Source: Methylotenera sp. (GTDB taxonomy: Bacteria; Pseudomonadota; Gammaproteobacteria; Burkholderiales; Methylophilaceae). Taken from it: 64,000 nucleotides of DNA. Positions within the stretch are counted from its first letter, which is position 1, and every line of letters begins with the position of its first letter. The translations under genes were made by a program, and so were the position numbers. Of this stretch, positions 17,907 through 32,623 are shown in pieces. A model generated the notes under the pieces. That model had not been told where the DNA came from. It made no database searches and worked only from the letters and a program-made list of their open reading frames with translations. The stretch is from NCBI GenBank assembly GCA_030655015.1, contig JAURWJ010000150.1:21028-85027 (forward strand), given 5' to 3'.

Positions 17907-18155
17907 AGCCATGCTCTCCAAAGTGAAAAATTTCAAAGATATTGTTAAGGGTAAATTAACCCTAACACTCATTAAATGCTGGTAATGATTCTACTTTTCT
18001 TGTATGCCATGTCCATTACTACTAGTGGTTACTCCTTATGGAGTATCGGGCGTGCCGGGGTGTTGAGATGGGTTATGTTGGTGTGTGCTGAAAAGTACAA
18101 AGCGCAAGCGCAGTCTGGTGCTGATGTGCAGGATCATATCGCTTGTGCCATTTAT

Positions 18156-18187
18156 AAAAAAAGCCACGTTAAAACGTGGCTTTTTTT
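18156..18187. terminator. Bidirectional terminator
   Basis: AAAAAAAGCCACGTT-AA-AACGTGGCTTTTTTT. Confidence 0.85.
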
Positions 18188-18204
18188 ATGCGCTGGGGTG
18201 TGAA

Positions 18205-18588
18205 TCAGTCGCCGAACGGTGCCGCTACATCTTGGCCAATTCTGATGGCGAATATTTTGCGGACAGTTTCTATGGTTTTCCAGGTGATCTTAGAGCCCGC
18301 CGCAACAAAAAAGCTGTCGCCGCCTACATAGGTATTAGACGTGCCATTGGCTTCAGTCAGTATGGCTTTGCCTTCAAACATATACACTAGTTCATCTGCA
18401 TTGTACGTTACTTGGTAAGTGCCAGGTGTGGCTTCCCAGTAACCAGTTAAAAACTTACCGTCAGCCGGTGCGTGCTCAATCCATGTTTTCATGGTTGGTG
18501 AGCCTTCAACGGGATTCCAGCCACCTAGGTCGGCTGTAATAGGTGCTGTGTTAGGGGTTTTAAATTTGCCAAACGAAATCATTGTCAT
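18205..18588 (-). CDS. Cupin-domain protein (cupin_3/DUF861-like)
   Basis: Small cupin fold ORF (GTYQVTYNADELVYMFEGKAILTE). Confidence 0.75.
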   Translation of the reverse strand: MTMISFGKFKTPNTAPITADLGGWNPVEGSPTMKTWIEHAPADGKFLTGYWEATPGTYQVTYNADELVYMFEGKAILTEANGTSNTYVGGDSFFVAAGSKITWKTIETVRKIFAIRIGQDVAAPFGD

Positions 18589-18982
18589 TCAATCTCTCCT
18601 GAGGTTTCTTGGTAATAGGTTTATGTAATAAATTACTTCAAAATTAAAACTATTCATCAATAAAAACAATTTATTAGTGTTTGCAATTTACTTTAATGAA
18701 AATTCTCGTCAATACCAACTAAGGATTAGTCCTTATGTGTTAGTTGTCACGGTCTGGGGATATGTCTGTCAAAGCGTCATCGAATGGATGGCGTATTCGG
18801 CTGTTTCTAGGTTTGCTCGAGGTTAAAATAGAGCCACTTATTTACAATGGCTCAAAGACATCAAGGTTCTGCCTTATGGACTTTGAAATAGATATGTGAT
18901 GCAAAATATCCAGCAGGGCTGGTTTTGATCTTTAATTTATGCAGTTTAATGACGCTGTCTACACCGACAATTTCGTTAAAAC

Positions 18983-19099
18983 TTACTCTCCATAATTTTT
19001 AACAAATATCCATGCGCTGATCAGGCAAGCCAGACTCAAGCCGCCAATGACAAATATCGCGAGTTCGCCCGCGCCAGCATAACCCCAAAAATTATTCAT
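18983..19099 (-). CDS. Small 38-aa single-TM protein
   Basis: Below the ORF-track cutoff; minus strand reads MNNFWGYAGAGELAIFVIGGLSLACLISAWIFVKNYGE* with an AGGAAC RBS, just downstream of 19118-19402. Confidence 0.6.
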   Translation of the reverse strand: MNNFWGYAGAGELAIFVIGGLSLACLISAWIFVKNYGE

Positions 19100-19117
19100 G
19101 GATTGTTCCTTTTCTGG

Positions 19118-19402
19118 TTAAGGTAATAGCAGTCCGGTATCTACCATTCTGGATATTCCAAAGTCTGAAAGCTGATAGTTAAACATTAGTTTTAATGTTC
19201 CGTCAGTAGCTTCCAGCTTCTCATCAATCCGCCTAACTAAACCGGCAGCTGAGAGTTCATCTAAAGCAATACGTATGGATTTTTCTCTAAAATCGCCTGA
19301 CTCGCCATATTCAATGAATGCATTTTTAACTAACTGATGGTCCCACATATGTGCGACCTTGCTTAATTCAGTAAGTAGAAATCCTTTTTGGTGCAGTTTC
19401 AT
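19118..19402 (-). CDS. Hypothetical 94-aa protein (winged-helix-like)
   Basis: ORF overlaps the end of the transporter gene (ATGA). Confidence 0.6.
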   Translation of the reverse strand: MKLHQKGFLLTELSKVAHMWDHQLVKNAFIEYGESGDFREKSIRIALDELSAAGLVRRIDEKLEATDGTLKLMFNYQLSDFGISRMVDTGLLLP

Positions 19403-30022: not shown

Positions 30023-30988
30023 ATGAGTACAATTTTGGTAATTGCGGAACATCGCCGCAATGAGTTGCGCCCTGTTACCCTAGAACTTATCTCTGCGGCG
30101 CAAGGGCTAAAGAAATCAGCTGACGACAAAGTGGTGGTGGCGGTCATTGGTAGTCAGGCTGACAGCTATGTGCCTGCTTTATCCGTGAACGGTGTGGATG
30201 AAGTTGTGGTGGTTAAGTCATCATCGGTGGATTTTGATCCTGATATTTTTGAAGCTGCGGTTTCAGCATTAATTGAATCAAAAAAATCAGCGGTAGTGCT
30301 TTTGCCACATACTGTTGATTCACTTGGTTATGCAGCAACGCTTGCGAGTAAGTCAAACCTTGGCTTTGCAACCGATGTATTTATTGCAGAATATCAAGGT
30401 GATGAGTTAGTCGCTACCCGTGGTGGCTATAATCAAAAGGTGAATGTAGAAGTCGATTTCCCAGGTAAAGATACTGTGGTAATGACCATGCGTGCCAGCG
30501 TATTTAAGCCGTTAGAAGGTACTGGCAGTCCGGTCGTGACTAACTTGGATGTTTCTTCAGTGCAATCACGCAGTCAAAATAAAGACTTTATCGAACTTGG
30601 TGGTGGTAACGATATCGACATTACAACCGTTGATTTCATTATGTCAATCGGACGTGGTATTGGTGAAGAGACCAATGTTGAGCAGTTCCGCGAACTGGCA
30701 GAAACAGCAGGCGCCACATTGTGTTGTTCACGTCCAATCGCAGATGCGGGCTGGCTGCCAAAATCAAGGCAGGTTGGGCAATCTGGTAAGGTCGTGGGTT
30801 CATGCAAACTCTACGTAGCCTTAGGGATTTCTGGCTCTATCCAGCATATGGCAGGTATGAAGCATGTACCAACTATTGTGGCTATTAATACGGATCCAAG
30901 TGCCTCCATATTTACTATCGCTAAATACGGCATTGTTGGTGATATATTTGAATTTGAAGAAGAGTTAAATAGTCAGTTGGCTGCATAA
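30023..30988 (+). CDS. etfA: Electron transfer flavoprotein alpha subunit
   Basis: SRPIADAGWLPKSRQVGQSGKVV and LYVALGISGSIQHMAGM FAD-binding motifs. Confidence 0.93.
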   Translation: MSTILVIAEHRRNELRPVTLELISAAQGLKKSADDKVVVAVIGSQADSYVPALSVNGVDEVVVVKSSSVDFDPDIFEAAVSALIESKKSAVVLLPHTVDSLGYAATLASKSNLGFATDVFIAEYQGDELVATRGGYNQKVNVEVDFPGKDTVVMTMRASVFKPLEGTGSPVVTNLDVSSVQSRSQNKDFIELGGGNDIDITTVDFIMSIGRGIGEETNVEQFRELAETAGATLCCSRPIADAGWLPKSRQVGQSGKVVGSCKLYVALGISGSIQHMAGMKHVPTIVAINTDPSASIFTIAKYGIVGDIFEFEEELNSQLAA

Positions 30989-31045
30989 AACTACGCAATA
31001 TAAACGTACGTGATGTAAGAATTCAGTAGGCAATATTTAATAATG

Positions 31046-31080
31046 GTGCAGGGTAAATATTCATATCCTGCACTGTTTTT
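31046..31080 (+). terminator. Intrinsic terminator after etfA
   Basis: GTGCAGG...CCTGCAC followed by TGTTTTT. Confidence 0.65.
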
Positions 31081-31110
31081 AATCTCCCCAGTTTTTAAAT
31101 TTGTCTTTGG

Positions 31111-31126
31111 TACTACCTTAGTAGTA
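31111..31126. promoter_or_regulatory. Candidate NarL-type 7-2-7 operator
   Basis: TACTACC-TT-AGTAGTA, about 98 bp upstream of the GcvT-like start. Confidence 0.5.
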
Positions 31127-31216
31127 CATCTTCATGGGAATTTTCAACATATTCCTGTTCCTATACTGTATGAGTAATGACTTATTAATCACTCTGACGT
31201 AGGGCTTGGCAAAATT

Positions 31217-32338
31217 ATGCGCAACTCAATTCTTAATGGCAGGCATATTGCACTTGGTTCCAAGCTGGATGGCGATACTTGGAATGATATGCCAGTGCCT
31301 TGGGCCTACAGTACTTGTGCTAATGATGAAGTTGTTTCTATACGTACTCATGCTGGTTTATTTGATGTTTCCGCACTTAATCTTGTCGATGTGGCAGGGG
31401 TTGATGCTGAGCGTGTGCTCAATACCTTGGTTGCAAAAGACATCACCAGACTCAAGGTAGGCACTGCCATCATTGCTGCAGAGCTAAATGAAGCCGGTGC
31501 TTTATGTGACGATATTATGATTATTCGCGTAGCTACGGATGTTTTTAAGGTTTCACATGGCAGTGGCAAAACCTTGAACAATTTACAGGCATTGGCAGCA
31601 GGTAAAAATATCAAGATTGAGCGAGATACCGATACACACGTAGTTTCGCTACAGGGACCAAAAGCGCTGGAGATTTTAGCGCCACATGTGGCTGTTAAAT
31701 TGGCAGGTTTACCCTACTTTAATTTTGTGAAAACCACTTTATTTGGTATTGATGTGACCATTGGACGCGGTGGGTATGCTGGCGAACGTGGCTACGAAGT
31801 ATATGGCGCTTCTAAAGACATGGTGACGTTGTGGGACAAACTTCTTGAAGTTGGTAAGCCACTTGGCGCAATCGCGGCTTCATGGAACTGTCTTGAGTTA
31901 ACCCGTGTTGAAGCTGCGTTGCAGTTTTTCCCGTTCGAAATGCCTGAGGGCGACACTACACCTTGGGAAGCCGGGTTGGGTTGGGCTGTGGATGTTGATA
32001 AAGAAGCCGATTATACAGGCAAGGCAGCAGTACTGAAGTCGCGCGGTTACGAGCGAGTTAAGCATATTGGGCTGGTTTGTAATAGTGATGTTGCTGTTGA
32101 AACCGGTGCAAAAATCATGAAAGATGGTGTTGAGGTTGGTGTGATTACGAGTAGTAGTTATAGCCGTTATTTAATGCGTTCATTGGCATTGGCGCATATC
32201 AAGCCAGAATATACCAATATTGGCACCGGCGTTGAAGTGGTAGGTAGCTTGAGTACTTGCAAAGCCAGAGTTGCACAAACGCCATTTTATGACCCGATGC
32301 GCTTACGCTCACATCCTGAAAAATTTAAAGGTCAATGA
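31217..32338 (+). CDS. GcvT-like folate-dependent aminomethyltransferase family protein
   Basis: GcvT fold motifs (HAGLFDVSALNLVDVAG, GYAGERGYEVY, E-x-G-LGWAVD); stand-alone, no gcvH/gcvP adjacent. Confidence 0.82.
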   Translation: MRNSILNGRHIALGSKLDGDTWNDMPVPWAYSTCANDEVVSIRTHAGLFDVSALNLVDVAGVDAERVLNTLVAKDITRLKVGTAIIAAELNEAGALCDDIMIIRVATDVFKVSHGSGKTLNNLQALAAGKNIKIERDTDTHVVSLQGPKALEILAPHVAVKLAGLPYFNFVKTTLFGIDVTIGRGGYAGERGYEVYGASKDMVTLWDKLLEVGKPLGAIAASWNCLELTRVEAALQFFPFEMPEGDTTPWEAGLGWAVDVDKEADYTGKAAVLKSRGYERVKHIGLVCNSDVAVETGAKIMKDGVEVGVITSSSYSRYLMRSLALAHIKPEYTNIGTGVEVVGSLSTCKARVAQTPFYDPMRLRSHPEKFKGQ

Positions 32339-32623
32339 AAATAAAGATCAATGTACGCTGGGCTAAACGTCTGTACTGCATACAAAAACTATGCATTCTG
32401 ATTTGATTGAATATAAGGGGATGACTAAATTTCATCCATTGATGGTTAATTGGCTTGCCAAATTTGATGATGGTGCCGTTTTAGATGTTTGCACTCAATC
32501 TGAATAAAAGTAGTATCAATTTCATTCAGTTAGACATTGTTGCGTATGGGGAGTTAATTATTGTGTTGCAGTTATTTAATATGAAGAATTTGTAATTAAT
32601 TTTAATCAACTAAAGGGGTTTAC

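Follow-up and report, generated by a model that had tools for sequence, protein, structure and literature searches.

In Escherichia coli, the response regulator NarL acts as an activator at inverted pairs of heptamers with 2-bp spacing (7-2-7 sites): at ogt these lie at -44.5 and -77.5, and at yeaR a single one lies just upstream of the -35 box (PMC7419079). Control of methylated-amine catabolism has been described for regulators of other kinds: in Ruegeria pomeroyi, TmaR (AraC family) and TmoR (GntR family) control the trimethylamine (TMA) and dimethylamine (DMA) pathway, including dmm and tdm (PMC13390433), and DmfR of Paracoccus aminophilus is cited in PMC4543880 as an activator of the LuxR family that acts on dimethylformamide degradation, a neighbouring C1-amine pathway. 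No two-component regulator of the genes for TMA dehydrogenase (TMADH) and DMA dehydrogenase (DMADH) was found in the open-access literature, subscription papers lying outside the search. Here we describe a composite NarL-type element, its promoter geometry, its conservation, its set of targets and its co-inheritance with a NarL-family regulator, in a 64,000-nucleotide stretch of Methylotenera sp. (hereafter the window; genome of 2.34 Mb, 85% complete), whose closest named relatives, judged by the regulator, are Methylotenera and Methylophilus. A NarX/NarL-type system, together with a divergently encoded membrane PAS protein, very probably switches on methylated-amine catabolism through these operators; we infer binding, activation and the amine signal from sequence.

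A composite operator upstream of methylated-amine genes

A first-pass annotation of the window had taken a 16-bp 7-2-7 palindrome as the regulatory unit. Its geometry is indeed that of NarL sites, but the real unit is a composite of about 34 bp fused to the promoter, in which the palindrome is followed by a conserved right arm reaching into the sigma70 -35 box. The upstream DNA of orthologous tmd loci in family members shares the conserved block TACYACYTWRGTRGTAA-N-CC-RTARKGAGAATTGT, which also stands upstream of the permease gene, the GcvT-like gene and dmd in other genomes. When a matrix built solely from the orthologous upstream regions of other genomes was run on the window, it gave seven sites (scores 12.0–46.5), the best score in 20 shuffled windows being 5.4; after retraining, a scan of both strands returned the same seven (12349+, 18045-, 18742-, 20682-, 20735+, 22762+ and 31111+) and no other above 10. 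Every one is intergenic and aimed at a gene start:

12349–12383, plus strand: operator before an sRNA-like stretch and folE2 (12641–13432); found before folE2 in 12 genomes
18011–18045, minus strand: operator of dmd (15696–17972, minus strand), taking in the half-site 18017–18023
18708–18742, minus strand: operator of a EutQ-like cupin gene (18205–18588, minus strand)
20648–20682, minus strand: operator of an EamA-family transporter gene (19399–20490, minus strand)
20735–20769, plus strand: operator of an amine/trimethylamine N-oxide (TMAO)-permease-like gene (20954–22651)
22762–22796, plus strand: operator of tmd, with the palindrome at 22762–22777
31111–31145, plus strand: operator of a GcvT/DmmD-like gene (31217–32338)

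The two dehydrogenase targets are:

22874–25066, plus strand: tmd, a trimethylamine dehydrogenase-like flavoprotein
15696–17972, minus strand: dmd, a dimethylamine dehydrogenase-like flavoprotein

Four of the previously listed palindromes, upstream of dmd (18030), the permease gene (20735), tmd (22762) and the GcvT-like gene (31111), are thus instances of one 34-bp element (scores 21.6–46.5), while two further candidates were rejected: the site before the EMO-like gene (25568) scores -13.7 and is not kept even in a genome with a 94%-identical EMO protein, and the half-site region before the outer-membrane-barrel (Gcw) gene scores -24 and is not conserved. All the sequence strings quoted in the first-pass annotation are present, the last half-site being displaced by one base (AGTAGTA at 32509–32515, not 32510–32516). 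The half-site at 18017 is real but not separate, forming the dmd element's right arm, and the 6-4-6 palindrome at 18720–18735, held to be a different motif, lies inside the cupin element. The operators of the EamA transporter and of folE2 had been missed, and the regulon, described as dispersed, has the eight strong sites of the genome confined to at most 37 kb of a single contig. The eighth element lies outside the window (L123:10065-10516; G000 C111:15064-15515), in two overlapping registers, ahead of a small EutQ-like cupin gene followed by riboflavin synthase.

The proposal to build a motif model and scan orthologous upstream regions in the Methylophilaceae was borne out: of 29 orthologous tmd promoters read, 28 have the element, and so does each of the 30 genomes that encode a tmd orthologue. 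By itself, the 16-bp palindrome occurs 80 times per strand in the whole genome when three mismatches are allowed, and was dropped as a genome-wide motif for being too unspecific. A riboswitch or known RNA was likewise ruled out as the nature of the sites, the element preceding both the -35 and the -10 box and no Rfam match being found at the sites.

Promoter architecture

Across 161 distinct sites, the positions T1 A2 C3 and G14 T15 A16 are conserved around a 2-bp centre, which is the inverted-heptamer arrangement of a NarL-type operator. Outside the matrix, T-A-n-A-A-T appears at columns 54–59, and two or all three of the key -10 bases are matched at that offset in 138 of the 161 sites, as opposed to about 28 at most other offsets. 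A -10 box at columns 54–59 makes TTGTNN (columns 31–36) the -35 box, leaves a spacer of 17 bp and puts the centre of the palindrome near -57.5. At tmd, these parts are:

22792–22797: -35 box, TTGTTT
22815–22820: -10 box, GAAAAT
about 22827: predicted transcription start

A half-site scan revealed an extra inverted pair beyond the two arms, at columns 15–21 and 24–30 (z 13.5 and 9.7). Columns 15–30 would be a second, degenerate 7-2-7-like site centred near -43.5, sharing 2 bp with the first and ending at the -35 box.

The element is inherited with a NarL-family regulator

The proposed binder of the operator is encoded in the same region:

36843–37496, plus strand: NarL-family response regulator

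It has the receiver (Response_reg, 1.2e-27) and GerE-type helix-turn-helix (GerE, 4e-22) of the NarL subfamily (LuxR/FixJ), matches PDB 1a04 (E 8e-66), and shares with E. coli NarL 50% identity and an identical TVKVHxKH recognition helix (K-V-H-x-K conserved).

Among 187 genomes of the family, with orthologues defined by at least 67% identity, 36 have both regulator and element, one the regulator only, three the element only and 147 neither (Fisher p 7e-34). Eight genomes carry regulator and element without tmd; in these, one element follows the regulator gene, on its strand and 10–140 bp beyond it, and faces the permease gene where inspected. The element therefore tracks the regulator more widely than it tracks tmd. 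Order-wide, the element was found in six of 399 genomes and not in the other 393. Four of the six are family members with the orthologue, in a fifth (G236) the contig with the element also carries a 58%-identical regulator, and the sixth (G191), lacking a regulator match, may owe its element to chance.

Scanning for relatives of the regulator over 85,000 species yielded 80 named loci, and in the regulator tree the element occurs in 29 of the 38 rows of one supported clade and at none of 43 related NarL loci outside it (p 2e-14), where the top element score is 6; the element-free rows inside the clade are partly short contigs. Clade members belong to the Methylophilaceae, Methylophaga (Gammaproteobacteria), Hyphomicrobium (Alphaproteobacteria), Methyloversatilis and Derxia. 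Gene neighbourhoods follow the same division, amine genes being present in 28 of 37 clade loci vs 0 of 43 others. The first-pass annotation already proposed that a methylated-amine regulon is under the control of the adjacent NarX/NarL-like pair, acting through NarL-type sites; this view is strongly supported at the sequence level by the co-occurrence in the family, by co-inheritance over Alpha-, Beta- and Gammaproteobacteria, by the NarL-identical recognition helix, and by the presence of the element on a second, non-homologous TMA pathway.

One operator on two non-homologous pathways

The genes behind the 161 sites include the permease (34), tmd (27), gcvT/dmmD (25 loci, including Methylophaga), EutQ-like cupin (12), folE2 (12), dmmA (10), eamA (8), other cupin (6), dmd (5) and tmm (3). 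In Methylophilus sp. 13, from which tmd is absent, elements precede genes for a Tdm-like protein (DUF1989+GCV_T), for an FMO-like Tmm, for the permease and for GcvT, with DmmA and haem-dependent N-demethylase genes nearby; one and the same operator is thus found on two routes that are not homologous but handle the same substrates. Ruegeria needs the GcvT-domain protein DmmD to grow on TMA (PMC5520151).

Within the window, the permease protein passes the NCBIfam model for trimethylamine N-oxide permease (846 vs a cut-off of 690), and the cupin operator is retained upstream of orthologous cupins with scores of 12–24. A variant form of the dmd element (..ATGGAC) recurs at dmd of Hyphomicrobium zavarzinii and of the genomes G182, G051 and G052. 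The dmd start given by the longest open reading frame (17972) is probably 22 codons too long, a start at MARDPRF near 17906 fitting both the N-terminus of tmd and the position of the promoter. The permease transcript is predicted to begin near 20800, leaving a leader of about 150 nt (20800–20953) with conserved blocks ending in GGGGACTTAAATTG in many relatives; this leader is a possible candidate for regulation of the permease.

Cofactor genes also stand at elements, namely folE2, ribBA and a riboflavin synthase gene downstream of the cupin gene at G000 C111:15066, a placement which suggests that cofactor supply is part of the regulon. In some genomes, genes for truncated or single-domain globins are also preceded by elements (L064:16425, L100:1588 and L073).

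Between the 12349 operator and folE2 lies a putative non-coding unit:

12414–12525, plus strand: predicted terminated transcript of about 110 nt, with a 5' hairpin, a UCUCC core and a strong terminator before folE2 (fold z -3.7)

This transcript is a candidate small RNA (sRNA) or attenuated leader. Its plan of element, 5' hairpin, UCUCC core and terminator is shared by 12 genomes (including L084, L061, L067, L071, L072, L131 and L134). The transcript has no Rfam match, and a consensus promoter and terminator scan of 12300–12640 returned nothing at its thresholds, though folding shows a clear terminator stem. Downstream of its PAS gene, Methylophilus has a second such unit, in which an element leads into structured non-coding sequence (loop ACCUCUCUC) that is followed by no open reading frame (L150:6410, L151:6360 and L152:6361, plus strand).

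The sensor side and the question of nitrate

Two further genes complete the presumed signalling module:

34980–36806, plus strand: NarX/NarQ-type histidine kinase with transmembrane, helical periplasmic, GAF-like, HisKA_3 and HATPase_c regions
33562–34914, minus strand: membrane-anchored PAS-PAS protein with no output domain, divergent from the kinase

The PAS-PAS partner is present in 36 of 37 clade loci vs 0 of 43 outside. It is longer, at 620–780 amino acids, in Burkholderiales and Methyloversatilis.

A genuine nitrate/nitrite NarX-NarL system, tying methylated-amine oxidation to nitrate respiration, is an unlikely alternative. The regulator and its clade mates do exceed the NCBIfam NarL equivalog cut-off (NF007935; 281 vs 250 bits for the regulator), and several of these methylotrophs are denitrifiers, which counts in its favour. 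Against it, the kinase falls below the NCBIfam cut-offs for both NarX (234 vs 578) and NarQ (245 vs 553), has no recognisable P-box, and in an alignment with E. coli NarX neither the P-box INKAGSLRMQSYRL nor its arginines have a counterpart in the aligned kinases; judged by this missing P-box, it would not be a nitrate sensor. In the fetched flanks, moreover, narG/narK occur at 0 of 37 clade loci vs 11 of 43 non-clade loci. Given the amine genes around these regulators and a kinase that is not of the nitrate type, their NCBIfam name likely marks kinship and not function, a systematic misannotation. As to the signal, the most economical guess is a methylated amine or its product, and not nitrate. 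A fold search with the kinase for a clue to the ligand was set aside, its matches (DesK, VraS) coming from the kinase core only and the model having a pTM of 0.36.

Proposed mechanism and remaining alternatives

In the activation that we favour, a phosphorylated regulator dimer would bind the inverted repeat TACYACY-TW-RGTRGTA and, with the second site ending at the -35 box, would from there make contact with RNA polymerase on a weak promoter of the sigma70 type, TTGTNN-N17-TANAAT. Its targets in the window would be tmd, dmd, the amine/TMAO permease, the GcvT/DmmD-like gene, the cupin, the EamA transporter and the sRNA-like unit before folE2/ribBA, and elsewhere the operator would serve the Dmm/Tmm/Tdm route. 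The odds seem to us about even for a wider proposal: that the PAS protein, histidine kinase and response regulator form a horizontally moving module acting as a general switch for methylated amines, with its operator on both TMADH/DMADH and Tmm/Tdm/Dmm pathways; this module would also drive a small RNA that is conserved and has an anti-Shine-Dalgarno core, and would thereby add a post-transcriptional arm and flavin/pterin cofactor supply.

Several observations weigh against the activation mechanism. The TA shared between the two inverted pairs contributes part of the z scores of the second; that -35-proximal site is degenerate and fits in more than one register, an exact heptamer standing one base earlier, at columns 23–29, in the dmd element; and some window sites have a poor -10 box or fit a 16-bp spacer better. 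The regulator and its targets are physically linked in most genomes, and co-occurrence is therefore partly co-inheritance. Finally, G181 has one element without the regulator, G047 and G182 (incomplete assemblies) carry elements with no orthologue detected, and G131 (79% complete) has the regulator with no element detected. The G181 element (L136:3881-4319) lies ahead of a truncated gcvT/dmmD gene and resembles a decaying remnant.

Repression, or a mixture of effects, at these promoters appears as improbable as a nitrate system. NarL is annotated as a dual regulator and the element's proximal half touches the -35 box; however, the palindrome lies upstream of the -35 box and the proximal site abuts it, as at the activating NarL sites of ogt and yeaR, and the -35 boxes are weak, as expected of activated promoters.

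Less probable still is a genuine element recognised by some other transcription factor, with the NarL-like pair no more than a linked neighbour. Linkage of regulator and targets is such that co-occurrence alone cannot separate this possibility from binding by the pair, but the element is kept in the eight genomes with the regulator and without tmd, sits on differing target genes across three classes, and has NarL geometry matched by an identical recognition helix. As for chance palindromes in AT-rich intergenic DNA, the many genome-wide near-matches to the 16-bp motif and the spurious EMO and Gcw candidates fit that explanation, which is already refuted for the seven listed sites by 34-bp matches without comparable counterparts in shuffled windows, by the conservation at tmd promoters and by the absence of the element from nearly all genomes of the order.

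Comparison with known systems

Control of this pathway in methylotrophs of the TMADH/DMADH type has no account in the open literature searched, and a regulator, an operator and a list of targets are now named and testable. If a methylated-amine branch is among the proteins to which the standard NCBI model gives the name NarL, many annotations, and the inferences on denitrification drawn from them, would be misleading. The use of one operator and regulator on unrelated enzymes for the same substrates should aid in finding members of the pathway, such as the cupins, the EamA transporter and the sRNA-like units, and the operator may be useful for building amine-responsive promoters.

The regulator described here resembles E. 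coli NarL in sequence and recognition helix, and its kinase is, like NarX, of the HisKA_3 type; it differs in having methylated-amine and not nitrate genes as targets, a kinase without a P-box and a near-obligatory PAS partner. The operators, similarly, share with those of E. coli NarL the inverted 7-base elements, the 2-bp spacing and a proximal site beside the -35 box, an arrangement seen at ogt and yeaR (PMC7419079), whereas here the operator is extended and overlapping, and its half-site reads TACYACY as opposed to TACYYMT. TmaR and TmoR act on the same kind of pathway but belong to unrelated families, the window regulator combining a receiver with GerE and having no AraC or GntR domain, and no two-component system appears in PMC13390433. 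DmfR, likened here by its description as cited in PMC4543880 and not by sequence, is also an activator of the LuxR family for a neighbouring pathway of C1 amines, with another substrate and other genes.

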